Shown here in pieces: positions 6,722 through 64,000 of a DNA stretch of 64,000 nucleotides (position 1 is its first letter; each line of letters begins with the position of its first letter). Position numbers and translations under genes: made by a program. Below the pieces are notes generated by a model. It had not been told where the DNA came from and did no database searches. It saw nothing but the letters and a program-made list of their open reading frames with translations. Origin of the DNA: Polytrichum commune (taxonomy: Eukaryota; Streptophyta; Polytrichopsida; Polytrichales; Polytrichaceae); the NCBI GenBank assembly GCA_950295325.1, contig OX485803.1:1424001-1488000 (forward strand). The letters run 5' to 3'.

Positions 6722-9700
6722 ATGGCAAATATTATGCGGCTAGCAATGGGGAGTGTGAAATTTCCTGCAATATCATTGTTGGATGAAGTATTGAATAGAA
6801 GACAATGCGAGAATTTGTTCAACTTTCAAAATGGTGTGCAAGCATTGCAAAGCATCACAAGTGGTCATGACAAGGTGTTTCGCAAAGCAGAAGAAGATCT
6901 ATATCAAATTGTATATAAAGCAAAAGTGCTAATTGAAGATTGTTGCAGAGAAGATTGGTGTCGCACTGGAGTGACATAATTCACGAACAAAGAGTGCTTT
7001 AGAGAACTCCTTTTGGACTTTGAAAATTGCTTCCACACAATTTGTGACATATCTCACCTTTACCATCCAGCTCAAGAATAAAAAATTCTTGCGATTAGGA
7101 ATGATATGACATTCTACCCAACATCCATTGATGCACTTAAAGAGGATCAAACTTCGATATGTGGAAGGTTTTCTAAACATTTGGATTCATGCACAACTAT
7201 GGATTGCGATGATTGCAAACTTGCGCAATACCTTAAGGAGTATCTAATGAGTCTACAACATGTTGAAGGTGGTGGTTTGGACAAAATTGATTTTCCTTAC
7301 AATTATCCCCGCCCGAAATATATAGGAGATCCACCTAGGGTTTTGGGAAGGTCAAACAACATGTGTGTGTTCTTGACAAATTGGTTGGGTATGGAGTCTG
7401 CAACAAAGGTGTTTGACATTCGTGATCCCAAGGACATAAATCAACTTTGGAAAGAAGCAAGTATTTTGGGAGGATTGAATCATCCAAACATCATCAAGTT
7501 TTATTGTTGTGGTTGTCATGAGGTGGAAAACCAATTTGAGCTTGTTATGGAATATGGAAAGAAAACCTTAACAGAGCATTTAAGTATGGCAGGTCCTCTT
7601 GAAGAGATAAATGCAGTGGACATTATGTTACAAATTGCAAATGGAATGTGCTACCTTCATGATATGAAGGTGGCACATCGTGACCTAAAGCCTGGTAATG
7701 TTGTTGTGATTCTACCAGATGATTCGACATTGACTAGACTTGGGTGCATACAAGTGAAATTACTTGATTTTGGTATTTCAAAGGTTGAAGTGAAGGATTA
7801 TGGGGAGGTGCCCACAGGTCGATGCATAGGAACATGTGGATACATGGCGCCAGAGATCATGGCGAATGAATTATTGGAGGTGGATGCTTTGAAAGCTGAT
7901 GTGTTTAGTTTTGGCATGTTGTGTTCTGATATTCTTTCGGGGGAGAAATATCCTTTTGGTTCATTTCGTGAATACCGAAAGTACATATTAGAATATTCTA
8001 GTAGACCAAAGCTACCAGAATCCTATTCAGAAGGATTAAGATCAATGGTGCATGATTGTTGGTCGTTGGATCCTTCGAAAAGACCAACATTTCTTGATAT
8101 TCACAACAAACTTACAAGTTTGAAAAGGCTTACAATCCTCAAGGGTGTGGTTAGGGTTGGAGGAGCTACAAATGATACACATGGCTTCTTATGGAAAGTT
8201 TGTTTATCATACTTATTCTTTGTTTTGGTCTCTTGGATCCAATACTTATGGTCCCTATTCAAATATAAACATGTGAATCGTTCAACCTTATTTCCAAGCG
8301 CCCAAAAGGCCTCTAATGGATCATCATCAAATCCATTTTCAATGGAGGTAAGTGTGTGGTTGATTTTATGAATGGAAGTTAATAGATTTCAATTTTATTT
8401 GGGATGATTGAAGTGACCTCACTAACCCTATCATGTGATCAACACTCACTAAATTCGAGAAGTTGGAAATTTTGTAGGTCAACAACGATGACAACATGAA
8501 GGAATTTTCTAAATTAATTGGAGTCCAAGACAAAGTTTTTCAATTGGAAAGACAACTTCAAAGTGTTGATCGTGTAGGACTTGTTGGCATGGGCGGAAGT
8601 GGCAAGTCGACGTTGGCTAAGGCTTTGGGCGACCACATCTCTAAGGGATTTGATGCAACATGTTTTGTATACGACTTGAAGGATGAAACTTGTACATTGC
8701 AAATAAAGCACAAGTCCAAAGGCATGGAAGACTCACGTCCTCAACCAAAAACATTGATAACAACACAAGAGATTTTGAAAGATATTCAAAGAACAAAAAC
8801 AATTCTTATTGTGGTTGACAATGTGAGCAAACAAAGTCAACTCCAACAACTATTGGGTGATGGTATGTTCAAAGATGTCAATGGCAGTAAATTGATTGTT
8901 AATTCTCATGATTGGAACGCCTTGGAACAACATGTACCCATGGGTGGTAAAATAAACATGCAAACCCTGGATGGGAACCAAGCTATGGAGCTATTTTCAA
9001 TGTGCGCTTTTGGGACCAACCAATCATGTCCACCTCATTTAAAAAATGTGGTTGAAAAGATTGTGGATGCATGTTGTGGACTCCCTTTGAGTTTGGAGGT
9101 GATGGGCAAATGCCTGCAAAGGGAATCACGATTGAGAATATGGGAGTGAACATTGTATAGGGTGTTGAGGGCAAGACATGATGGAGGTGCAGATGAAAAG
9201 ATTTGGAAGACATTGAGGATAAGCTTTGATGAGCTGAATAATCTAGAAAAAAACATGTTTCTAGACATAGCATGTTTCTTTTGTAAAGATACATATGTTG
9301 ATGATGTTTGTCCAACAAAGGAATCATATCTTAGAATGTTGCATGGAGATATGAAGATTGCCAAAAATGTCTTGAAAAGACTTCAAGAAAAATCATTGTT
9401 GGAAGTGAACGACTGGGAATGTTTTTATGTTCATGATCAATTGCGTGAGATGGGTCGTATGATTACGGAAAATGATTTTGCAGGGACTCGGATTTTTAAT
9501 ATAAGTTACCCTGCATTCATCAATCGTTGTAAACAAAAGGTATATGGTTTTGCGTTTTGTATAGGTTGATGTTTCTTATTACCTTCTTGACAAGGTCTAT
9601 TAAATTGAGGAAGTTACATTATATGTCAATAGTTGTAAACCCATGTATTCTAGATGAAAAACAAATCAACTCATGTGCTTTGTTGTGTATGTAGGGCATA

Positions 9701-10179
9701 GAACTTCTCCAAGGCCTATCAATTACAAATTTGGAAAACAAATCAATGTATGAAGGAGATATGGAAATGAAATCAATGGAAAAGCTTTATCTACTCCAAG
9801 TGCGATTTTGTGGAGATATTACCCCACTTTCTACTATTATGAAAAAATCACCCAATCTTAGATGGTTGAACATCCATCTCTCACCCAAACGTATTGACTC
9901 CACAAGATTGACAAACCAATTCATTGGGAAGTTTTTCACTGATATCCTAGAAAATCTCCAAAATTTGCGGTACCTTGCGATGTCCAATTGCAATTTTTTG
10001 GGATCAATTTCTTGTAAATACATGAATATGATGTCAATCCGGGAATTATCATTTTCAAATTGCGGACAAATGGATGAATTCCTCATTGGAGTTGATAAAC
10101 TCATCAACCTAGAAGAGTTAGGCTTCTTTGACTGCGAAGACTTCAAGGGCACCTCGATTCAGATAGCCAACCTATCCGC

Positions 10180-13100
10180 CTTGGAAAATTTACAATTCTC
10201 CAAATGTCGGGCATTGAAAATGATCCCAGAAAGCTTTCGCAACTTGACGAAACTCCAAATATTGCGCATGCTTGAATGTGAGGCTTTAGAGGATTTCCCT
10301 CTTGGAGTGAGCAACCTCTTAGCATTAGAGGAGCTCAATTTTGCAAGATGTCGGGCTTTGAAAACGATCCCAGGAAACTTTTGCAACTTGACAAAACTCA
10401 AAATATTGTGCATGTTTGAGTGTGAGGCTTTAGAGGATTTCCCTCTTGGAGTGAGCAACCTCTTAGCATTGGAGGAGCTCAATTTTGGAGGATGTCGGGC
10501 ATTGAAAACGATCCCGGAAAGCTTTGGCAACTTGACAAAACTCCGAATATTGTGGATGTTTGACTGTGAGGCTTTGGAGGTGTTCCCTCTTGGAGTGAGC
10601 AACCTCTTAGCATTGGAGGTGCTCAATTTTGCAACATGTCCGGCATTGAGAACAATCCCGGAAAGCTTTGGCAACTTGATGAAACTTAAAATACTACGCA
10701 TGTTTGAATGTGAGGCGTTAGAGGATTTCCCTCTTGGAGTGAGCAACCTCTTAGCATTGGAGGAGCTCAATTTTGCAAGATGTCGGGCTTTGAAAACGAT
10801 CCCAGGAAACTTTTGCAACTTGACAAAACTCAAAATATTGTGCATGTTTGAATGTGAGGCTTTAGAGGATTTCCCTCTTGGAGTGAGCAACCTCTTAGCA
10901 TTTGAGGAGCTTAATTTTGGAGGATGTCGGGCATTGAAAACGATCCCGGAAAGCTTTGGCAACTTGACAAAACTCCGAATATTGTGCATGTTTGAATGTG
11001 AGGCTTTGGAGGTGTTCCCTCTTGGAGTAAGCAACCTCTTAGCATTGGAGGAGCTCAATTTTGCAAGATGTCAGGCATTGAAAAGGATCCCGGAAAGCTT
11101 TGCCAACTTGAATAAACTCAAAATATTGTTCATGTTTGAATGTGAGGATTTGGAGGTGTTCCCTCTTGGAGTAAGCAACCTCTTAGCATTGGAGGAGCTC
11201 AATATTGCAAATGTCAGGCATTGAAATCGATCCCGGAAAGCTTTGGCAACTTGACGAAACTCAAAGTATTGAGCATGTTTGAGTGTGAGGCTTTAGAGGA
11301 TTTCCCTCATGGAGTAAGCAACCTCTTAGCATTGGAAGAGCTCAATTTTGGAGGATGTCGGGCATTGAAAACCATCCCGGTAAGCTTTTGCACTTTGACG
11401 AAACTCAAAATACTGCATATGTTTGAATGTGAAGCTTTAGAGGATTTCCCTCTTGGAGTGAGCAATCTTTTGGCATTGGAGGAGCTCAATTTTGCAAGAT
11501 GTCGGGCTTTCAAAACGATCTCTGAAAGCTTTGGCAACTTGACAAAACTCAAAGTATTGATCATGTTTGAATGTGAGGCTTTAGAGGATTTTCCTCTTGG
11601 AGTGAGCAACCTCTTAGCATTGGAGGAGCTCTATTTTGGAGGATGTCGGGTATTGAAAACGATCCCGGAAAGTTTTGGCAACTTGACAAAACTCCAAATA
11701 CTACACATGCTTCAATGTGAGGCTTTGGAGAATTTCCCTCTTGGAGTAAGCAACCTCTTAGCACTGGAGGAGCTCAATTTTGCAAGATGTCGGGCTTTGA
11801 AAACGATCCGAGGAAACTTTGGCAACTTGACGAAACTCCAAATATTGCGCATGCTTGAATGTGAGGCTTTAGAGGATTTCCCTCTTGGAGTGAGCAACCT
11901 CTTAGCATTAGAGGAGCTCAATTTTGCAAGATGTCGGGCTTTGAAAACGATCCCAGGAAACTTTTGCAACTTGACAAAACTCAAAATATTGTGCATGTTT
12001 GAGTGTGAGGCTTTAGAGGATTTCCCTCTTGGAGTGAGCAACCTCTTAGCATTGGAGGAGCTCAATTTTGGAGGATGTCGGGCATTGAAAACGATCCCGG
12101 AAAGCTTTAGCAACTTGACAAAACTCAAAATATTAAACATGTTTGAATGTGAGGCTTTAGAGGATTTCCCTCTTGGAGTGAGCAACCTCTTAGCACTGGA
12201 GAATCTTAATTTTGGAGGATGTGGGGTATTGAAAACGATCCCAGAAAGCTTTGGCAACTTGACAAAACTCAAAGTATTGATCATGTTTGAATGTGAGGCT
12301 TTAGAGGATTTTCCTCTTGGAGTGAGCAACCTCTTAGCATTGGAGGAGCTCTATTTTGGAGGATGTCGGGTATTGAAAACGATCCCGGAAAGTTTTGGCA
12401 ACTTGACAAAACTCCAAATACTACACATGCTTCAATGTGAGGCTTTGGAGAATTTCCCTCTTGGAGTAAGCAACCTCTTAGCATTGGAGGAGCTCAATTT
12501 TGCAAGATGTCGGGCTTTGAAAACGATCCGAGGAAACTTTGGCAACTTGACGAAACTCCAAATATTGCGCATGCTTGAATGTGAGGCTTTAGAGGATTTC
12601 CCTCTTGGAGTGAGCAACCTCTTAGCATTAGAGGAGCTCAATTTTGCAAGATGTCGGGCTTTGAAAACGATCCCAGGAAACTTTTGCAACTTGACAAAAC
12701 TCAAAATATTGTGCATGTTTGAGTGTGAGGCTTTAGAGGATTTCCCTCTTGGAGTGAGCAACCTCTTAGCATTGGAGGAGCTCAATTTTGGAGGATGTCG
12801 GGCATTGAAAACGATCCCGGAAAGCTTTAGCAACTTGACAAAACTCAAAATATTAAACATGTTTGAATGTGAGGCTTTAGAGGATTTCCCTCTTGGAGTG
12901 AGCAACCTCTTAGCACTGGAGAATCTTAATTTTGGAGGATGTGGGGCATTGAAAACGATCCCAGAAAGCTTTGGCAACTTGACAAAACTCAAAGTATTGA
13001 GCATGTTTGAATGTGAGGCTTTAGAGGATTTGCCTCTTGGAGTGAGCAACCTCTTAGCATTGGAGGAGCTCTATTTTGCAAGATGTCGGGCAGTGAAAAC

Positions 13101-14650
13101 GATCCCGGAAAGCTTTTGCAACTTGACAAAACTCAAAATATTAAACATGTTTGAATGTGAGGCTTTAGAGGATTTCCCTCTTGGAGTGAGCAACCTCTTA
13201 GCACTGGAGAATCTTAATTTTGGAGGATGTGGGGTATTGAAAACGATCCCAGAAAGCTTTGGCAACTTGACAAAACTCAAAGTATTGATCATGTTTGAAT
13301 GTGAGGCTTTAGAGGATTTTCCTCTTGGAGTGAGCAACCTCTTAGCATTGGAGGAGCTCAATTTTGGAGGATGTCGGGCATTGAAAACGATCCCGGAAAG
13401 CTTTAGCAACTTGACAAAACTCAAAATATTAAACATGTTTGAATGTGAGGCTTTAGAGGATTTCCCTCTTGGAGTGAGCAACCTCTTAGCACTGGAGAAT
13501 CTTAATTTTGGAGGATGTGGGGCATTGAAAACGATCCCAGAAAGCTTTGGCAACTTGACAAAACTCAAAGTATTGATCATGTTTGAATGTGAGGCTTTAG
13601 AGGATTTGCCTCTTGGAGTGAGCAACCTCTTAGCATTGGAGGAGCTCTATTTTGCAAGATGTCGGGCAGTGAAAACGATCCCGGAAAGCTTTTGCAACTT
13701 GACAAAACTCAAAATATTGCGCATGTTTGAATGTGAGGCTTTAGAGGATTTCCCTCTTAGAGTGAGCAACCTTTTAGCATTGGAGGAGCTCAATTTTGCA
13801 AGATGTGGGGCTTTGAAAACGATCCCAGGAAACTTTTGCAACTTGACGAAACTCAAAATACTGCGCATGTTTGAATGTGAAGCTTTGGAGGATTTCCCTT
13901 TTGGAGTGAGCAACCTCTTAGCATTGGAGGAGCTCTATTTTGGAAGATGTCGGGCATTGGAAACGATCCCGGAAAGTTTTTGCAACTTGACGAAACTCCA
14001 AATATTGCACATGTTTGAATGTGAAGCTTTAGAGGATTTCCCTCTCGGAGTGAGCAACCTCTTAGTATTGGAGGAGCTCAATTTTGCAAGATGTCGGGCA
14101 TTGAAATCGATCCCGGAAAGCTTCGGCAACTTGACAAAACTCAAAATATTGTGCATGTGTGAATGTGAGTCTTTGGAGGTGTTCCCTCTTGGAGTGAGCA
14201 ACCTCTTAGCATTGGAGGAGCTCAATTTTGCAACATGTCGGGCATTGAAAACAATCCCGGAAAGCTTTGGTAACTTGACGAAACTCAAAGTATTGAGCAT
14301 GTTTGAATGTGAGGCTTTAGAGGATTTCCCTCTCAGAGTGAGCAACCTCTTAGCATTGGAGAAGCTCAATTTTGCAAGATGTCGGGCATTGAAAACGATC
14401 CCGGAAAGCTTTTGCAACTTGACGAAACTCAAAATACTGCGCATGTTTGAATGTGAGGCTTTAGAGGATTTCCCTCTTGGAGTGAGCAACCTCTCAGCAT
14501 TGGAGGAGCTCAATTTTGCAAGATGTCGGTCATTGAAAAGGATCCCGGAAAGCTTTTGCAACTTGAAAAAACTTAAAATGTTGCGCATGTTTGAATGTGA
14601 GGCTTTGGAGGAGTTGCCTCTTGGAGTAACCAACTTCTTAGTGTTAGAGT
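10180..14650 (+). repeat. tandem array of about 31 LRR pairs, 144-bp unit
   Basis: The coding unit is 48 residues made of two 24-residue LRRs: an IPESFGNLTKLKILCMFECE type and an LEDFPLGVSNLLALEELNF type. The GATCC anchor that opens the P-E-S-F half lies at 10222, 10366 and so on to 14541. That is exactly 30 periods of 144 bp once the single deleted base near 11210 is counted, so no other indel has accumulated in 4.3 kb. Units differ by scattered substitutions, mostly at positions after the CMFECE and NFARC motifs. The pattern fits homogenisation by unequal crossing-over or gene conversion. Preceding LRRs (9731-10180) are irregular and older. Confidence 0.95.
11524..12963 (+). repeat. 720-bp tandem duplication inside the LRR array
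   Basis: 11524-12243 and 12244-12963 are near-identical copies of a block of five 144-bp units; only two or three base differences were seen when the 60-base rows were compared (for example near 11764 versus 12484, and 12228 versus 12948). Identity is far above that between neighbouring 144-bp units, so this is the most recent expansion event. A shorter similar block links 12840-13140 with 13410-13700, offset by four units. Confidence 0.9.
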
Positions 14651-14652
14651 AG

Positions 14653-15450
14653 CTCCAAACGGAGCTTAATTGGGAGTTAACATGATTCAAAAGACTTTAA
14701 GTGGGAAAATGTATGGTTGGGGTTGTTTTCGCTTTTTGAGTAAGGAATATGTGAGCATTTTCAGGAGTTATTGTAGAGAGATTTCCAGAGTGATCTTGGA
14801 TTTTGTCGAATGTCAAGGTATTTAATATGTAGGAACGTAAGGCTTTGGAGTAGTTTCCTCTTGGATCAAGCAACAACTTAGCATTTGAGGAACTCAATTT
14901 CGCAAAATGTTAGTCCTTAAAAATGATACGTGAAGTAGTTGGGAGCTTACAAGTCTCAAGAGACTTCAAATGCAAAAATGTGAGGTTTTCAAAGAAACCG
15001 CGATTGGATTAAGCATCCTCTTAGCATTGGAGGAACACAATTCTATGAATTTTTGGTCTTTAAAACAATACCAAAAGGCTTTGGGAGGTTGATGGATCTC
15101 AAGAAACTTGACATATATGGGGATGTGAGGCTATAGAGGAGTTTGCTTTGTGATTAAGCAACCTCGTAGGCTCAAAGGGATTGGATTCCTCAAAATGACG
15201 GTATGTGAATAACATATCTTAAGCATTTGGGAGCTTGAAAAAACTCCCAAAACTATACTTGCGAGGTTGTGAGGGTTTGGAAGAGTATCCACTTGGATGT
15301 AATTACCTCATAATGTTAGGCTTTATAAGAATATACCAAAAATATTTGGAAGCTTGAGGAGTCTTAAGATATTGTACATGCAAGAATGAAAGGCCTTGGA
15401 AGAGTGTCCTCTTGGACTCATTAAAGAACCTCTTACCATGTGAGCAATAG
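14653..15450 (+). pseudogene. decayed LRR continuation
   Basis: Downstream of the TAG at 14650-14652 the plus strand still contains recognisable but frameshifted LRR units, such as AGCAACAACTTAGCATTTGA (14870s), CTCTTAGCATTGGAGGAAC (15020s) and TTGGGAGCTTGAAAAAACTC (15220s). Spacing is irregular and all frames have stops. The array was once longer, and only its inner part has been homogenised. Nothing similar is seen after about 15450. Confidence 0.75.
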
Positions 15451-16710
15451 AAGTTCTAGATTGTGGAGGTGATATGAAGATTTTGGCTTTATGCCTCTTT
15501 AGTTTTTTAATATATTGAAATGTATAATGTTAATGTGATTTCTCAAAGGAGGTGTGATGAGATTGTAACCACTTCTAGTAGATGCATTGAAACCAAACTT
15601 GATTTGAAATCATAAATATGTTTCTTCAACTTATCTTACAAAGTGTTTGACTACATTTTGATAGTATATGAGATCCATTTGTCATGCCATTGCATGTTAA
15701 AGGCAATCAATAGAGTTTGGTATCATGATCCTATGGTCTACATGGACTTGACTCCAAAGTCACAACCATGTATTAATCATTGGTCGGCCCCATGTAGTAT
15801 TTATTTTATTTTGATTAGCCTCTCTATGTTAGCGATACACATTGAAAGTTAGTTCAACAAAAGTTCACAAAACATGTGCAAGTCAATACGGGGGTCTAAA
15901 TTTTTGTCATAAACATGGATTTTTTTTGTTTCTCAGTATGTTGTAAATGTTAAGTTTAGGAGCTACATTATAAGGTTTGGTGACTTCTAAACATACCTAA
16001 AACAAGTATCAAATAAGTACAGTGAGATCTTTGGGTGTATGTACAATAATATTAAAAGAAAGATCTAGTATTGACCCGTCCAAACTTTACTTTCAAGGTA
16101 ATATTACATGGCACCCTTTGAAGTTGCAACATCAAAACATCAAAACTAAGAAGTTACATGTAAAATAATTGTCCCTACCCCAAAAGTAGTCCGTAACATT
16201 GCACAATTGCTTGGTTGTGTTCCATGGACTAGACATCTTATGAGCATAATTCTCCTTTAATTTTGGGTTCCCTGTTCATGGGGAGCACATAGGATGAGTA
16301 GTATGAACTTTCGACAAGGTGTTGTAAGTTACTCCACGTATTTCAATCACGACCTCTTACTTTAGAAAGAGACCATCATGTAGTTGCATAGTAATGTTAT
16401 GTCATGAAGGATCATTCAAATTGGATGTAAGAGGATCTATTATAGAATGACTCCCACCACCACAAGCCTTGCACCCACTTCCATTTTCTAGTACATGATT
16501 TTATCCCTCTTGGGTCATACATAGCCTAGACTAAAATCGTTTTTGGGTTAGGGACATGGGCATTAGGATATGTAGGGGATTAGGTAATAGGTGAGGCCCT
16601 AGAGACAATGCATTATAGAAAATTAAGACCCCCGAGGGTGGTTAGATCTTTGACTTTAGGTCCTCACCGCAAGTAGAGAACTAGCCCTAATTGATGGATC
16701 CCTTCACCAT
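15451..16710. other. intergenic, no feature recognised
   Basis: AT-rich DNA with short ORFs only. No repeat partner within the window was noticed. Confidence 0.4.
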
Positions 16711-20942: not shown

Positions 20943-21284
20943 AAGGTCCAGCATACTGAGGAGCTACTGGCCTCGGTCCAGCATACTAAGGGCTACCAAC
21001 ATACCAAGGAGCTACTGTCCTCGGACCAGCCGGCCGAGGAGCTACTGGCCTCGGTCCAGCATACTAAGGGCTACCAGCATACCAAGGAGCTACTGTCCTC
21101 GGACCAGCCGGCTGAGGAGCTACTGGCCTCGGTCCAGCATACTAAGGGCTACCAGCATACTAAGGAGTTACTGTCCTCGGACCAGCCGACTGAGGAACTA
21201 CTGGCCTCGGTCCAGCATACTAAGGGCTACCAGCATACTAAGGAGCTACTGTCCTCGGACCAGCAGATTAAGGAGCAAGGGTAA
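20943..21284 (+). repeat. 78-bp higher-order tandem repeat, open in one frame
   Basis: GGTCCAGCATACTAAGG recurs at 20975, 21053, 21131 and 21209, giving an exact 78-bp period; a truncated unit starts at 20945. Each unit is itself three related sub-units of 22, 26 and 30 bp, each ending in a GGGCTAC or GAGCTACTG(T/G)CCTC-like core. In frame +, 20943-21281 is free of stops for 113 codons, bounded by TAG (20940-20942) and TAA (21282-21284), and repeats a 26-residue motif containing ELLASVQHTKGYQHTKELL. There is no ATG. The other plus frames and the three minus frames have stops in every unit, as far as I checked. It could be an exon-like or simply repetitive stretch. Confidence 0.8.
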
Positions 21285-24429: not shown

Positions 24430-25990
24430 AAACGTACAATGACATCATTTGAGAGTGAGGCCGTTAGAGTCATTGACAAGTTCAATAAAAAGAACTTCAA
24501 TATTTGAAAGTTCAAAATTCAAATGTTGTTGGCATCCATGGATATTTGGGACATTGTAGACGGATCCAAAACTCCACCTTCTAATGCAGATCCCAAAGTA
24601 TTGAAGGAGTACCAACGACGCATCAAGAATACCATGTCCATCACACGGGGAGGTCACTTCATTGTCAAGTTGACACCACGTGCGGACAAAGTTTGCTACC
24701 CCTATATTACATGCCATATATAATTTTAAAATTTATGATATTTTTTCTACATATAAATAACCATTGATAGTATCTTTTGAATTTTTTTTTGAATTTTTTT
24801 GTCATCTTTATTTTTTTTAGTAATTGTTTTAGTTCAATTATGTGTCATTCTAGTTAGAAACGGTGTGTTTTATGAAAAAAACAAATCATCAAATTTAGTT
24901 ACCACTTTTAACTATGTCATAGGTATTGTGTATATCTACTCATGAAAAACAATTGATAAAATTTTGACCCATTTTGGTGGTGCAAATTACCAAAAGAAGA
25001 TTTTTTTTGGTTGCACGTGATGTTCAACTTGACAATGGAGTGATCTACCCGTGGTCCATCATTGGCCTCAACATGACGGACAACCAACTTGTGCACATCA
25101 AAAGTTGCAAGGAATCCGCAGAGGCATGGAAAACCCTTTGCAACATTTATGATACGAAAATTTTGTTCAACATTCTCTTCATTCGCCGTAAGTTTTTTAC
25201 GTACAAGATGCAAAAATGTGACGACTTGTTGGACCACGTCAATAAAATTAACGCATTCGCAGATCAACTTGTTTGTTTGGAAATATCCGTGAGAGACGAA
25301 GACATTGTCAAAACCTTGTTCAAGAGTGTGTCAACATCGTACAAATACCTGACTACCGCCTTCAAGACAATGCCAATGAAAGAGATTACGATGGACTATT
25401 ATGTGACGGCGCGGATATATGAGATGTCGAAGCGCAAAGAGACAAAACTCCAAGATGAGGATGCCACCACGATATTACGAAAAAATAAAGGCGGCAACTC
25501 ATTTCCACATTAAGGCGCAAAGTTGTGGTTTTATTGCGGCAAACCAGGCCACATTGCACGTTTTTGTTACAAAGCAAAGAACGAGGATTGCAAAAATGCA
25601 AAGAATGCGAAGCACGATGACGATTACACATTTGTAATGCACAATGAAACACATTTTAAAAGCGTGTGCAAGTAGATCATGTATTCGAGAGCCTCCAAAC
25701 ATATGATTTCCCATAGGGCCGCATTCAACACATATGAAGTAATCGCTTCATGCATTGTGCATTTGGGTTATAATAGTGTTGTCAAAGTCATTGGAATGGA
25801 ATCTATCATCGTAGAAACAATCGTGAATGATAATATCAACCAAATTTGTATCAAAGATGCGCTCTACATGCTCAAATTGCATGCCAATTTGCTCTCGGTG
25901 AGCAAATTTATCTTGAATAGTTTGAAGGTCTAATTCAACCTAAACAATTGTTTTTGCATACTACACCTTCCATGTTTGGTGAGTTTTTGG
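24430..25990 (+). pseudogene. Ty1/copia gag-protease pseudogene
   Basis: Gag part 1 (24435-24643): FESEAVRVIDKFNKKNF, WDIVDGSKTPP, LKEYQRRIKNTMSI. Part 2 resumes at 25062 after a MITE insertion: IGLNMTDNQLVHIKSCKESA, AEAWKTLCNIYDT, FFTYKMQKCDDLLDHVNK, KTMPMKEITMDYY. A zinc knuckle is seen in a shifted frame at about 25528-25575 as YCGKPGHIARFC; the first Cys of the CCHC is replaced by Trp. The aspartic protease begins near 25680, but its DSGAS-type active site reads YSRAS, preceded by a TAG; further similarity runs to LLSVSKFILNSLKV (25933). No integrase, reverse transcriptase or RNase H follows. Stops, frameshifts and lost catalytic residues show it is dead. Confidence 0.85.
24644..25053. 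mobile_element. 410-bp hAT-like MITE nested in copia gag
   Basis: Terminal inverted repeats of about 40 bp begin CACGGGGAGGTCACTTCATT at 24644; the right end, read on the minus strand from 25053, begins CACGGGTAGATCACTCCATT. Both then share TGTCAAGTTGA and a CACGTGC end. They differ by a few substitutions and a one-base gap. An exact 8-bp target-site duplication, GTCCATCA, flanks it at 24636-24643 and 25054-25061. Removing the element plus one TSD restores a continuous gag reading frame across the site (TMSI then IGLNM). An 8-bp duplication and CA-starting TIRs are the hAT superfamily signature. The interior is AT-rich and non-coding, so this is a non-autonomous element. Confidence 0.92.
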
Positions 25991-28390: not shown

Positions 28391-31300
28391 TTACCACAGT
28401 AAGGCAGGGGTAATGGAAGTGAATTTCTCGACAGGTGATGACTGCTCCAACACGATTGCAGCCTGGAAACTATCAACAGCCTCGCGCAGACAGCCCTCCT
28501 CTTTCTGCAACCTACCCATTTGGTACCAGGCCTCCTCATGGGTGGGCTCTGCCTGTAAAGCTTCAGCAAGATAGCACCGTGCCACTGGAATCGATGGCTT
28601 CCCGCCTGTTTGCCACAGAAGAGCACCCAGCTTCACTTTGCTGTCAACATGAGACGTGTCTACTGCAAGGGCATTCTGGTAGCACACCATGGCCTCTGCA
28701 GGCCGGCCTTGCGCCTCCCGCAACAATCCTACACATTGTGAGATTATCCGTCACCATATCAAGAAAACACTTATCATGAACACCACCTGCATAAACAAAT
28801 AAGGAAAGTGGCAGAGTGTAATTGTATCTAAGCATTTGGTAACCATGTGAATCATCTCACTAAAATTTAGACTCACCAGTATTTTGCCAGATGGTGGCAG
28901 AATAGGTTTTGAGCGATTGAGCTCTCTGAAGGCAAGTTTCGGCATCACACCATTGCTTTAGCTCCGTGTATAACAGGGCTAGGTCTTGCCAGACTTCCAC
29001 CTCCTCCACTGGCTCCTCCAACTGCATATCATCATTGTCCTCTCAATCCAAAGTTGCTGAGGAAGTTCAGGCCTGCTTGTACTTACATTCATGTTCTACA
29101 CAAAGAATGGGAGGTGCATGCCAACAAGTGAGATTCAATTGCTCACCATCTTCCTCATCTCGCTGCCAGTTTCCACATTTTTCTGCTCGGCTTGCAGGAG
29201 AGCAAGCAAAAGACGGTAGGTCTCAACAGCACGCAACGGCTGACCCAAGCCAAGCTGCACCTTAGCTCGTGTTCTCAGCAGAGGGCCTTGCTCCCATGGA
29301 CCGGTCTCCTCCAGCGCCGACTCCAGAACAGCCTCCGCCTCGCCATGCCGCTCTTGTGACGTTAGGAGCAAGGCCAGGAACCTCCATCCATATATCCTTG
29401 TGCCACCACTTTGATTCAGAAAGTGTTTTGCACATTCTAAAGCCAAGCTGATTTGACGTTGTTCGGCAAGTTCAAGACCGAGGTCAAAGATTATGGAAGG
29501 ATCTTCACTTTCTAAAGCAGCCGCCTCCTGCACAGTAAGGTTCACAAAGGTCCATAACCAAATCATTCTAAAGCTACCTAATTTCTGGGAAAAAGTGTAC
29601 TTCACAAGTACTTAAAACTGGGCATAAACTCCAAAGAGGGAATAGAAGAATGTGATCGATTGAGAAGTGAGCTTACTTGTAAAGCTTCAAGAGCTTCGAA
29701 ATGAAGCCTGGCCTTCTCTGAGTCAGAAGCCGCCACTTGAATCCTGGACCGAGTTGCAACGCCCAAAACATGCAGTGCGCAAGTTTTGAATGATAATAGG
29801 TCCCGCTGAGCATGTTGGAGAGCCCGCTTTGCATATCCAACGCCTTCACTCCCAAGCTCTGGTCTCCCAGCACACACTTTGGCCGCGAGCAGGAGTGAGC
29901 CTACATGGTTCGGCCTTTCAGATTCCCTCAGGGCCTTCCGCAGAAGATCAAGTGCAATAGTGTTATCCCCTGCTCCACAATAACAGAGGGCAAGATTGTA
30001 CCATCGGTCAGGCCGGGATAGCATCCCTGGCAGAAGCTCCTCAAATTGATGCGCCAATGCCTTCAATTGACCACACACCGAGAGTGCAAAAGATAGATGG
30101 TCCAAGATGCTTGGGTCCAGGTAACCATCCTGTTGTTTGTTGTTGCCCATTCGGAGAAGTATCATGAGCAGCAATATAGCCTCCTCGGCATTGTGCTTTG
30201 GTGTAAATGCACCCTCTACATGAGCTCCCAAACTTGCCCGTGGAGCCTCCACACCACTGTAGAGTAGCAAGATTGCAAAATGTTTCATGATATGCATTCG
30301 GTCCCAAACAGTCACACACCAGGAGAAGCGAAGCAATGACCTGCGGTATGCTGCCATTGCATCAGTTGTCCGACCGCATTCCAGGAGAAGCTCAGGCAGC
30401 AGTTTCACTGATTTGGCAACCATTTCACCCATCTTTGTGTCTCCCCACACCGCAGGTGGCCCTGTTGGAGTAGCCATCTCCATTGTGTCAAGTACACACT
30501 TGCACTCTCGTACAGCATCTGAAAATTGTCGGAAGATACCAGTCAGTGGAATGCCACAGGGCACTAACCTACAGGAGAATGCATCTTGTTGCTACATTCA
30601 CAACTCTTCCTAAGGGAAGACAACAATTGCAGATTTTCAAGGACAGGGAGCTTTCGTGATCGACAAAGATGAAAGGATTAGAAACTGAAATTAAATTGAT
30701 GCAAAAGCCTTTCAAACCTGTTCCCAAGAGAATAAATCAATTGTGAAAGTCCAAGGACAGGTAGCTATAACAATCAGCACAATAAAGGATAAGGATTTAG
30801 AACTGAGATCACATTTATGTAGAAGTCAATTCAAAAAATCTGCATTCTCTGCAGCTCATAATGGAGCACCTGAAAACCTCCCAAGCTCCTGCAGGCACTT
30901 GGCCTTGAGATAGAAAGCTTCCAAGAGCAAACTAGCACCGTGCAAGAAGGTGCAAAGAGCACTATCCCTTCCATCTCTGAAGAGTTTCCCTTTCGAATGC
31001 CGGAGTCTGGAGTCAGCAACAAAAAACCGCAAGCTCGCACCAAAGGAGTGCCCCTGGATCCCTTCAAACACCTGTAGGGCTCCAACAAAGTTGCCTCGCT
31101 CGAACTCTAAGCGACCAAGTAATGCTCGTGCTTCCTGGTCCAAACCCAACCAAAATAACAACCAACACATCAATGTCAGCTCAAGAGGCTGGAAGTGCAA
31201 GTGCAAAAGATTATTCTGGTTGATGCAGTTGCATTGCACATTGTAAACCATTTATACACAGTGGTCCGTGGATCCACAGCACTTTATGCATGATCATCTT

Positions 31301-48563: not shown

Positions 48564-51500
48564 TTATTTGGCATAGTCTGCCACCTGATCGGCGGTGGCT
48601 TTGCGAGCCTCAGATTCATGACCCACCGTTGTTGCAGATGCTGCTGGCTTATGATCCAAAGCCTTGGAGCTGTCAGCGTACCGGTTCCTAACACTATCCC
48701 ATGTGACACCAAGGTCAGCATGAGCATCAGCCGAATTGTCTTGTTTCACACCTTCAGCCGTCTTGCCTGCCTTCTCCTTGGCAGAATCCCACGTAGACAT
48801 AGCACTGTCAGCTACCTCATCTTTCTTCTCTTGCGTGGCACTCGCAGTGTCCGAAGCTCTAGTTTGAGCCCCCCCGAGAAGCTCAGAAGCCTTCTGCTTG
48901 ATCCCACCCCATGTCACGGCCGCATTTTCTTGAGCTTGCCCTGCATTGTCCTGTGCAGATCCTGCCGCGGTGGATGTGTTGTCCTTCGCCGAATCCTTGG
49001 TTTCGGCAGCTGTTTGCTTGGTGGAATCCCAAGTTGCAGCGGCTTTGGCCTTGGCTAAATCAGCTTGATCCTGGGCAGCAGTGCTTGTATCGTCCGCCTT
49101 CTGTTGCGTGGTGCCGAGAAGCTCTGAAGCTTTTTGCTTCATCTGCTCCCACACGGATCCTGCGTTGGCCTGTGCTTCGCCACCTTTGTTTTGGGCAGCT
49201 CCGGCTGCGTCGTAGGATCTGTCCTTAACAGACTCGAGAGTGGAGGCTGTCGCGTCCTTGGCTTGTCCTGCTTTCTCCTGCGCTGCTCCGCTGGTCTCTG
49301 ATGCTTTAGACTTTGTGACGTCTGCTGTCTGGCCTGCGCTGTCCTTGGCTTGCTGAGTCTTCTCCTGTGCTGCACCTGTGAGATCTCCGCCCTTCTCCTT
49401 CGTGACGTCCCATGCGCCCGCAGCCTTATCCGAAACTGCACCTGCGTACTCCGAAGCTGTTTGTTTTGAGCTGTCGAGCATCTGCTGGAGGTTCTCCTTT
49501 GCTTGGTTGATATAATCGTATGTGTTGTCCTTCGCAGCTCCATAGCTGCAATGGAAAAATAAGCAAGTCCCTTCAATTCCCACGCATTTTTCTAACTCTC
49601 TCGCAACCTGCTACAGGGTATATTCAAAAGGAAATGACGCCGCTGGCAGAAAATTCAAGGCCCAACATCTCAAATATTCTCTCAACCATATCCCGACATT
49701 TGGGCATAATTCAACAAGATCTGTGGTGATTTGTAAAGCCATCCCAGCCTCACTCCTCACTATCAAGAATCTTAAAGGCTGCATTTTGTTTATGTATTCA
49801 GTCTTATGTGATCAACAGATTCAGGTGCAACAAGTGCTTCAAAACTTAAGTAGCCCTTCATTGTAAAAACTTCTGAAACTGAACCTGAAAAAGGATAAAA
49901 AGAAGGTAGAGACTATACTTGTTGTTAGGAGTTCAATTCCTATGCACTATACAAAATGAATGAAGCTGTCGAATTCAAAGTCCAACTTTCAGCTGTATCC
50001 CGGCATTTGGATATTTGCTCAAATTATTCAGTTTTAACAAGACATGTGGTGTTTGTAGAGCCATCCCAGCCATTTACAACCGACTCCTTACGATGAAGGA
50101 TTTTGACAGCTGTATTTGCTTATGCGTTTAAGTTGCGTGACCAGATTCAGATGCTTCAAACTCAAGTAGCTGTTCAATGTAACGGATTCCTGAAATTGAA
50201 TCTGAAGGATTAAAAGAGGATGGAATCTGAAATTGTAAGGAATTTAATTCCTACAGTTTCACAAGAAAGCTGCAGAATACATACATCGAAATTAAGCAAC
50301 CAAACAAATTCTCAATAGCAAATCCGAAATTTGACCATGTGCAGAGCAATCACAGACAGCCATTGACATGTGATGAAGAATCTTAAAGAACTGGATTTGC
50401 TGATAGTTCTGACATCCCTATGCAACCCTTATCCGACCAAATACTCACGTTTCTGCAGCTTGGTCTGAGGTTTGACCCGCTTTGTCAGCGGCAGCATCTT
50501 TGGTACTGATGGCGGAATCCTCGACACTCTGGGCGGTTTGTCCAGCATATTCGGAGGCTTGATTCGTTCTATCAGCGGCGACATCCTTTGTGCTCTGTGC
50601 AGTTTGAGCCGTGCTGTCGGCAGCTTTGTTATAGGTGTCGGCGGCCGTATTTTTAACCTTTCCGGTCTGATCACTTGCGCTTTGCAGAGCGTTGTCCGTG
50701 GTCTGCTGGGCTCCCAGTTTCATCCCCTTCAACTTCTCCATGGCTGCCTGAGTGTACTGAGACAAAGTGTCCTGCACACCAAAACCCTCCGAAACTCAGA
50801 AAATTCGACCGAAGATGCAGCTCTTCAAGAATAACATACTTAAAGAGCGACATACAACCACCTCTCCTACCTCGAGGCATACAAATAAATGACTTCGAAA
50901 TTTGATGTCAAAATATCCAGTCACATTTTAACACTTTCTGCAGATACTGTGATGAGTCACCGACAAAAATATTCTCTCTTAACCAAATTGATCCAGATTC
51001 CGCAAATCACAGATCCTCTAGAAATTGCATCTATCTTCAAACTCTGAGAGCCGTTCTTTGCAATATACCATGTGACAAAAAGATCTTTCGAACTCTGCAG
51101 ATTCCAAAAATGCAGCTCTCCAAGAATTGCAAAATTTAGAGTGACATTGAACCTCTCCCACCTCGAGGCATGCAAATCTCCAAAGACCTTGATATCAAAA
51201 GATTGAAATAGTTCTTCTCAAATACTGTGTGTGCAAGGTAAAGATCTTTCGAACTCTGCAGATTCCATAATGTGCAGGTCTTCAAGAAACACAAACTTCG
51301 AGAGACGTTGAACCTCTCCCACCTCGAGGCACGCAAATCAAAGATCAATAGTTGATTACTTTCTGCGGATACTCTCATCATATTATTTTTTCTCCAATAC
51401 TGTAAAGATATGCAGTCCTTACACGAGGATAAAACGATTATTTTGAAATGAGAAATTTATCTTTGAGCCATACCAGGGCGGAGTTTTTGGTCTGCGCAAC

Positions 51501-62100: not shown

Positions 62101-63719
62101 TGTTAGTACATAATATTTAAATGCACCAAAATAGGAAAAAAAAAAAAAAAACCAACGTCAGGCAATCCGACGTGAATTTGAGCCCGTTGGCCCTACCATG
62201 CTAAGAATCCCCTTGGTGCAGGGTGGGGTTTACTGTCTATCTTGCGGTGGGTGGGCTCTTGTTTTTAAAACTATATGAAATAAAATGAAGTAATAATACA
62301 TTACATTGATACCTATTTACTATTGGGGGGGGGGGGGGGGAGAGTATTGGTTCTTGTTTATTATCGAGTTTTCTCTTATTAAGTACTAGGTATGTGAGAT
62401 ATTTGATGGCTATTTGGTGGATGGTTTTCATTGTTTTTTTTTTGTAAGTGATGTGGGGATATGTAGGTTCACAAGGAGTTCTATGCTTCTTGTGTGAACA
62501 ACTCCCCTTACCCCTGCGATGATAACTATGAGGGGTCTAATATTCCAGCCATGTGCTCTTATTGCGTCTATTAACGGGTTGTATTTGTCTTCTTTTGTTT
62601 GTATGGCTTGGTCAAGGAATCCATCATGCGTAAAGGTGAATTCAATAATTTGGATGGTTAGGTCCGGTGTAGGTATTAGTGGACCATTTTGTACATATGC
62701 AATGCCTTGTGTGTAAATAATATTTGGTCTTAGTTTTGCGAGGCATTCACATCGTGTGATGTTGCATGTGCAACTTAGTATCCATGGCGGGATGGTGTTG
62801 TCTTGGTGGTTGCCATGTTGGTTACCGACCTTAATGAGTGTAAGATGTCTAGTGTATACATTTGATTTCAGTAGGTTGGTGAGTTGGTGGGCAACGACAT
62901 TGTGTCTTGCAATTCTTAGGCCTTTAAGAAATGTATTGTTGCATAGAGAGAGTAAGTGCGGCCAAGTATCTTTGTTGTTCATTTGGCATAGTGTGCAATT
63001 GGGGTTGGGGTGTGTGTGTGGCTAGAAGAGATTTTTTCTATGATTGCCCATGTATTGGGCGAATCAAAACTTGAAGAGTTGTGTGATTTGGGTGTCCGTA
63101 GTTTTTGGGGTTTTCCAAAAGTGGTTAGACAATTTGTGGTGAATTTTCTCATTGGAGAGCCAATTTTTTGCATATGTGAATTTATGGTTGCTTCTTTTGT
63201 GAGCCTATTGTGTTATGTTATAAATGTTTGTAGGTTCCTTATTATGCCTGTTAGGTTGGTGCTTGAGGGAGGTTTAGCTAATCTATATGGTATGGTGTGG
63301 GCTACATGTATGCGCGGTATGGGTGTTATGGTGCCTTTTGAGGTGCCATCAATTGCCAGTGAGTCGGCCATGTCATTTCTTTTAAAACATGTGTGAGCTC
63401 TAACTTTTTGGATTGTTATTTTGTGTCGGAACCATGCTATGTGTTGAACTATAGATGCTATTAGCAATTTGTCCGGGTGATTGTGTTGGGAGGATGGGCA
63501 TCTTACGTGGTTGTTGATGAGATAGATGCTACTTAGGCTATTCGTGAAGATATGTATGTCGTGATTAACTTCTTGTGTGTTGGCAAGTGCTAACCAAATA
63601 ACATATAGGTATGCTCTAAGAATGCAAAATGCACTAAATAATAGAATGGGGAGACCTTCCGGTTCACACTTAAAAGATATTTTGAAGGGTTTAAGGTGAG
63701 CAAATTTCATGGCATCATG
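62101..63719 (-). mobile_element. 5'-truncated LINE (non-LTR retrotransposon) with target duplication
   Basis: Read on the minus strand, the body carries the RNase H and C-terminal part of a LINE ORF2, then a 3' region with G16/poly(C). GGGAGATCTCCC occurs at both borders (62089-62100 and 63720-63731), consistent with a 12-bp target-site duplication. No reverse transcriptase is present upstream, as expected of 5' truncation during target-primed insertion. A poly(A) tail in the expected place was not found, so border placement is moderately certain. Confidence 0.7.
62237..63715 (-). pseudogene. LINE ORF2 fragment: RNase H and C-terminal domain
   Basis: From right to left: a type-I RNase H with DIHIFTNSLSSIYLINNHVR, SSQHNHPDKLLIASIVQH, KVRAHTCFKRNDMADSLA (63560-63350); the first catalytic position in F-T-D-S is Asn. 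A frameshifted linker follows (63173-62990). Then a 180-codon C-terminal block with KDTWPHLLSLCNNTFLKGLR, DNTIPPWILSCTCNITRCEC, QIIEFTFTHDGFLDQAIQTK and AGVRGVVHTRSIELL (62970-62450). Past a T-rich frameshift it ends with IHQIAIKYLTYLVLNKRKLD. Frameshifts and a lost catalytic residue show it is inactive. The ORF start at 63788 lies in flanking DNA. Confidence 0.82.
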
Positions 63720-64000
63720 GGGAGATCTCCCGTTGTGGCTCCAAAAGGTCAATATTGGAGAATCCACTAATATCACCTTCAAAGCCACACCGGGAGATTG
63801 GAAGATCTCCCGATATCATACCCAATGATGAACCACACAGTAAACATCACAATAACCTTCTTGATTGGTTCCTCATAACAAATTATCTCCACGATTGCTG
63901 AACAATGTTTAGATGTCAAGGAACTTGGATCCCTTCATTCCTACTTTTTCCCTTCCTTGGGATTTCTCTTGTCCTCATATACATTGTGTTCATTGAAGCT
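63720..64000. other. right edge with GGGAGAT/ATCTCCC inverted repeats
   Basis: Besides the palindrome at 63720-63731, CGGGAGAT (63791-63798) and ATCTCCCG (63805-63812) form a small hairpin with a 6-nt loop. The remainder to 64000 has no recognisable feature. Confidence 0.5.

Follow-up and report, generated by a model that had tools for sequence, protein, structure and literature searches.

In Podospora, the NLRs HET-D and HET-E (HNWD family) have a sensor made of near-identical tandem repeats that vary in number, HET-D/E-type fungal proteins carry hypervariable residues under diversifying selection, and the cited passages propose concerted evolution for HET-D/E and for further NLRs of fungi that show high internal conservation (PMC12222747, PMC4986451). 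Near-identical repeats in the LRR region, differing in number between genes, are described in a plant study for the rice Xa1/Xo1 zfBED-NLRs and for flax L/M, and its relevant passages report that, of over 1000 NLR sequences from two rice genomes, only those at one locus carry near-identical LRRs (PMC7004385). In Physcomitrella, the excerpts from Xue et al. (2012) describe a PNL (PK-NBS-LRR) class in which phase-0 introns separate PK from NBS and NBS from LRR, 18 of the 45 genes of this class being PN forms (PMC3352924).

The stretch of DNA analysed here, hereafter the window, comprises 64 kb (C1:1424001-1488000) of a Polytrichum commune genome of 407.8 Mb in 64 contigs. It holds an array of LRR-pair units that is predicted to form the LRR exon of a kinase-NB-ARC-LRR gene whose exons, bounded by splice sites that are likewise predicted, are laid out as in the moss PNL class. 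The features of this gene are as follows.

6722-8347, + strand: exon 1, N-terminal region and protein kinase domain (Pfam Pkinase, 1.7e-38, on the ORF 7082-8371; alignment of 20 paralogues)
8348-8477, + strand: predicted intron 1, GT...AG, phase 0 (sequence; GT and AG in 20 of 20 paralogues)
8478-9539, + strand: exon 2, NB-ARC (Pfam NB-ARC, 1.3e-20, on 8478-9149)
9540-9694, + strand: predicted intron 2, GT...AG, phase 0 (sequence; GT and AG in 20 of 20 paralogues)
9695-10192, + strand: irregular LRRs ahead of the array, forming the start of exon 3, with no lesion found (sequence, paralogue alignment)
10193-14655, + strand: array of 31 LRR-pair units of 48 codons (Tandem Repeats Finder, in-phase cutting)
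11201-11343, + strand: unit 8, 143 bp, one base short, frame shifted (in-phase cutting, ORF list)
11524-12280, + strand: copy 1 of a five-unit block, lag 720, with 2 mismatches in 757 bp against 12244-13000
12244-13000, + strand: copy 2 of the five-unit block (self-alignment with copy 1)
14827-15416, + strand: decayed LRR-unit relics 3' of the stop, at 14827-15169 and 15345-15416 (blastn, 68-78% identity)

An N-terminal kinase, an NB-ARC followed by C-terminal LRRs and two predicted phase-0 introns are features that the window gene shares with the Physcomitrella PNL genes as described in those excerpts (PMC3352924). Besides Pkinase and NB-ARC, Pfam matched several LRR families on the window ORFs, all on the + strand, and a BED domain was absent from the matches of the four ORFs scanned. 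At the start codon, the initial two bases align in 19 of 20 paralogues. When solved structures were compared by sequence, the NB-ARC matched Roq1 best. Elsewhere in the window we observed a Copia-type gag fragment (24968-25513, + strand, Pfam 7.5e-24), an RNase H domain fragment that is perhaps retroelement-derived (63213-63815, - strand, 1.3e-05), a 348-aa ORF with a weak late-embryogenesis-abundant match below the Pfam cut-off (48564-49610, - strand), a pair of overlapping ORFs, perhaps exons of one gene, whose tetratricopeptide-repeat matches are weak and below the cut-off (29135-30591, - strand) and a second tandem array (20956-21264, 78 bp x 4.0, 96% matches).

Tandem Repeats Finder reported the LRR array at 10193-14655 with a period of 144, 31.0 copies, 89% matches and 0% indels, and cutting in phase yielded 31 units, all 144 bp long except one of 143 bp, with a stop codon (TAG, 14650-14652) inside the last. 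The first-pass annotation had described an exact 144-bp periodicity with one deleted base and a GATCC anchor running from 10222 to 14541. The spacing is as it claimed, although the anchor stands at the expected offset in 27 of the 31 units rather than in all (first at 10222, last at 14541; units 4, 9, 10 and 29 have none). Self-comparison of the region bore the repeat out, the lag-144 self-match being 0.874, whereas 200 single-base shuffles averaged 0.257 and never exceeded 0.28; together with the Tandem Repeats Finder result, this led us to reject a chance origin of the periodicity. Pairwise identity among the 30 full units ranged from 0.80 to 1.00 (mean 0.89; eight identical pairs). The consensuses of the two unit halves are 39% identical at the nucleotide level, which makes the two 24-residue halves distinct, and strands in a structural model recur about every 24 residues, in agreement with the earlier proposal that each unit encodes two different LRRs. 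The decayed relics were found by blastn of a doubled unit consensus against window positions 14656-15700.

Relatives of the window gene were collected by NB-ARC and kinase searches of the genome, the match lists giving lower bounds. This revealed at least 20 close paralogues (NB-ARC identity 79-89%), each with kinase and NB-ARC exons, and all 20 had an array with a 144-bp period, in which between 4 and 38 units were detected. Four of these arrays exceed the 31 units of the window (34, 37, 38 and 38), ruling out exceptional length of the window array. Ten more distant relatives (NB-ARC identity 55-69%, with an adjoining kinase match), which had been chosen without prior view of their LRRs, all had 144-bp arrays as well, of 4.7 to 42.2 copies, some of them clipped at the fetched end, and 72-bp arrays of at least 71 and at least 56 copies lay behind two of two distant NB-ARC hits (38% and 33% identity). 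Leaving the window aside, homogenised arrays were present at all 32 loci sampled, which were drawn from at least 150 NB-ARC matches. With such arrays at every other sampled locus and more units in four of the 20 close paralogues, the description of the window array as extraordinary is not supported. The 72-bp arrays (L031:373-5501 and L032:1-4017) have one LRR per unit versus the 144-bp pairs of the kinase class, and L019:3848-8290 displays a two-unit higher order, with period 288 (88% matches) over 144 (77%).

Unit spacing in the family was examined on either side of the first in-frame stop. Before it, 321 of 324 spacings were 144 bp, the remaining three being frame-shifting; of the 213 that follow it, 172 were 144 bp; and spacings of 141 or 147 bp were found neither before nor after (324 + 213 spacings). 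The "zero net slippage" of the first-pass annotation is not special to the window, the same regularity being found in those 321 of 324 family spacings. Whole-unit exchange combined with a fixed LRR length would result in the 144-bp regularity. In L012, a frame-shifting 146-bp spacing occurs twice, 9 units apart and within a duplicated block, a lesion spread by duplication.

To compare units, 526 of 558 detected units from 21 loci were retained (identity to consensus of at least 0.74). Of the 31 window units, 30 had their nearest unit in the same locus and one was tied; among all 526 units, 345 did so and 30 were tied, versus a label-shuffled mean of 3.2%. A tree was built for seven of the 21 loci (139 units); it rests on few columns and leaves 51 of 136 inner branches open. 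Locus labels changed 21 times on this tree versus 92.2 times when shuffled; the first units of all seven loci formed one group, which also took in window unit 8, and the grouping of inner units was mostly by locus. Copying of blocks is visible in the five-unit repeat of the window, which also has exact matches of 202-256 bp spaced 4, 7 and 9 units apart, in a repeated 4-unit block of L006 and in a repeated 9-unit block of L012 that carries its frameshift unit. The sister genes L010 (38 units) and L011 (30 units) match unit by unit at both ends but differ in length by 8 units. The first unit pair fell below the middle of the array in 18 of 19 loci and the last pair in 15 of 19, an edge effect that is absent from the window's own means (0.931 throughout). 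Homogenisation across the family is incomplete, as 151 of the 526 units were matched better by a unit of another locus than by any of their own; 43 of these matches link L010 with L011, and the remainder are scattered across many loci. By the nearest-unit measure, two loci do not look homogenised, L018 (4 of 4 units) and L020 (15 of 23). Array-specific fixed residues, compared at the 85% level for ten locus pairs, none with units from L021, were not used as main evidence: the window differed from L022 by 7, L028 by 10, L024 by 4, L026 by 3 and L017 by 2, and by zero from L001, L019 and L029 (the last with 5 badly cut units), while L022 and L023 differed by 3 and L028 and L029 by 0. Taken together, the arrays of the family appear to be under concerted evolution by whole-unit exchange, through unequal crossing-over or gene conversion. 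The proposal of a homogenised core maintained by unequal exchange or gene conversion is supported by the mostly locus-wise inner units, by the grouping of first units across loci, by the 720-bp block copy and by the downstream relics.

LRR strands follow the pattern xxLxLxx. Across 19 loci (bootstrap intervals over loci; L018 and L020 excluded; units of L008, L013 and the window behind the frameshift counted in unit phase), omega was 1.31 (1.04-1.64) at the ten x sites of this pattern, the best of 24 registers, and 0.21 (0.18-0.23) at the remaining 38 of 48 sites, the pairwise omega counting pairs with common ancestry. At the inner six strand sites, which were picked after viewing the data, omega was 2.03 (1.64-2.45). 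The window array alone gave 2.34 at strand sites versus 0.23 elsewhere, as would be predicted for an array that descends from a working gene. Part of the apparent selection could also be produced by a relaxation of constraint at the strand residues. A structural model of 9695-11224 (mean pLDDT 71, medium confidence) placed strands about every 24 residues, containing or flanking the strand sites, and a fold search with this model returned general LRR proteins. We infer that the strand face may bind ligands and that kinase output and oligomerisation may work as in other NLRs.

The window copy itself is predicted to be a disabled member of the family with a nearly intact array. Alignment with the 20 paralogues revealed nonsense codons at 6977-6979 and 7079-7081 in exon 1 and at 9147-9149 in exon 2, none of which is present in any paralogue in which the codon aligned gap-free; non-triplet indels were not found in the window exons upstream of the array. 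The short unit 8 shifts the frame, so that the ORF from 9695 stops at 11224 and seven whole units are readable. Owing to this missing base and the three nonsense codons upstream, the 31 units do not lie in one reading frame, and the predicted solenoid of about 62 LRRs is not encoded by this copy; nor is the copy one intact open gene of the PNL class. Upstream of the array, a nonsense codon or net frameshift is absent in 17 of the 20 paralogues, the exceptions being L011, L018 and L020, so that intact copies of that part of the gene exist. L017 has two deletions totalling 15 bp before its array, and stops within the kinase matches of L005 and L017 proved not to be exon lesions, being located just past the exon border. 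Among close paralogues, L016 and L017 only are open through the last unit, and L006 comes near to it. Because frame stops or shifts precede the last unit in most close paralogues, much of many arrays would go untranslated.

We consider it likely that the array is the LRR exon of a PNL-type kinase-NB-ARC-LRR gene, that this exon evolves as whole units and blocks of units are exchanged and strand variants kept, and that the window copy of the gene has been disabled. Exchange of whole 144-bp units and blocks would render units alike within a locus, and the same process would shift unit number in steps of 144 bp; changes at strand residues would be kept or favoured and most others removed, and exchange would reshuffle the surface variants into new sensor faces. 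The window would hold a disabled member whose array was left almost whole. From this one assembly, we infer that exchange may still be under way in populations. An error of assembly, in unit number or in the lesions, might be suspected from block copies that differ by just 2 of 757 bp; however, mean divergence among the window units is about 11%, the missing base is not part of any long homopolymer, and the presence of such arrays at 30 other kinase-NLR loci of the assembly, with units largely locus-specific in the 20 close paralogues, makes an artefact very improbable. It also seems improbable that the array is merely a selfish or neutral coding minisatellite, its units made alike by slippage or exchange and serving no recognition role. 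The L012 block duplication copied a frameshift unit along with the rest, arrays extend beyond the first in-frame stop in most close paralogues, and by a rough estimate the window block duplication is very probably younger than the loss of function, itself undated, all of which would suit such a repeat. It would leave unexplained, however, an omega of 0.21 at 38 of 48 sites alongside excess change at strand positions, and the fact that among the 324 pre-stop spacings those that keep the frame are all 144 bp.

The window gene might instead live on as a shortened kinase-NB protein, running from a later ATG of exon 1 to the exon 2 stop with the array as a passenger. The kinase ORF is open from 7082 beyond 8347 (Pkinase E 1.7e-38) with in-frame ATGs from 7106 onward, and short PN forms exist in Physcomitrella (18 among the 45 PNL-class genes in the excerpts of PMC3352924). 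Constraint, moreover, has been lost only in part: omega on the window branch was 0.60 over 1048 codons versus 0.51 in the nearest paralogue, L001, and 0.38 versus 0.50 in the NB-ARC exon. Against this, two nonsense codons lie upstream of such a protein and the third, with the frameshift, downstream, the nonsense codons being those absent from the gap-free codons of the 20 paralogues, and omega in the kinase exon was 0.77 versus 0.40. With 0.75 versus 0.93 at the start of exon 3, relaxation is visible in the kinase exon only, and we regard a surviving short protein as unlikely. The unconstrained share of the window branch was estimated roughly at 0.29, with an interval (-0.08 to 0.87) too wide to date the loss of function.

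The sister genes of the window copy carry the same kind of array, and these arrays are perhaps a recombining supply of new recognition surfaces. A broader proposal, to which we give slightly less than an even chance and which we put forward tentatively, is that in this plant the whole NLR repertoire, rather than a single locus, relies on internally homogenised LRR arrays to generate sensor surfaces rapidly by recombination, an LRR counterpart of the fungal NLRs with high internal conservation, in which the exchange unit would be 72 bp in some classes and a 144-bp pair in the kinase class, and exchange would continue for a time in disabled copies as possible donors. The interest rests with the array family more than with the window locus: its 21 close members include intact and broken copies and range from 4 to 38 units, which allows the pace and direction of repeat turnover to be measured directly. 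Among the matches listed in the open-access literature, we found none that describes homogenised arrays of LRRs throughout the NLRs of a bryophyte. Databases contain regular 'GNLTSLTTL' LRR proteins from Physcomitrella, so that the array pattern is perhaps not new to moss researchers.

Compared with known systems, the window array is regular and ordinary for the sampled genome, and uncommon among the plant NLRs of the cited papers. Whereas the excerpts on the Physcomitrella PNL class (PMC3352924) describe no unit array, the kinase class here carries homogenised 144-bp LRR arrays of up to 42.2 copies in the sampled loci. The near-identical LRR-region repeats of Xa1/Xo1 and flax L/M resemble them in differing in number between genes, but belong to other NLR classes, with 93-aa units in 3 to 5 full repeats in Xa1/Xo1 and units of about 150 aa in flax according to the passages cited (PMC7004385); the window units measure 144 bp, not the 279 bp of a 93-aa unit. 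In near-identical sensor repeats of changing number and in variable residues with signs of diversifying selection, the arrays are most like HET-D/HET-E (PMC12222747, PMC4986451). The fungal repeats, however, are WD40, ANK or TPR, with NACHT in HET-D/E, in the sections cited (PMC12222747, PMC4986451), and LRR motifs are reported from none of the fungal NLRs in the cited part of that survey (PMC4986451), whereas the repeats here are LRRs. The HNWD family is defined by NACHT and WD40, and Pfam gives NB-ARC and LRR in the window; judged by domain content, the family would be an analogue of the window gene, with membership excluded. The nearest functional analogue of the kinase-NLR arrays would be the fungal HET-D/E type, and if unit numbers vary between individuals, plant and fungi would have converged on a recombining repeat sensor built from different repeats.
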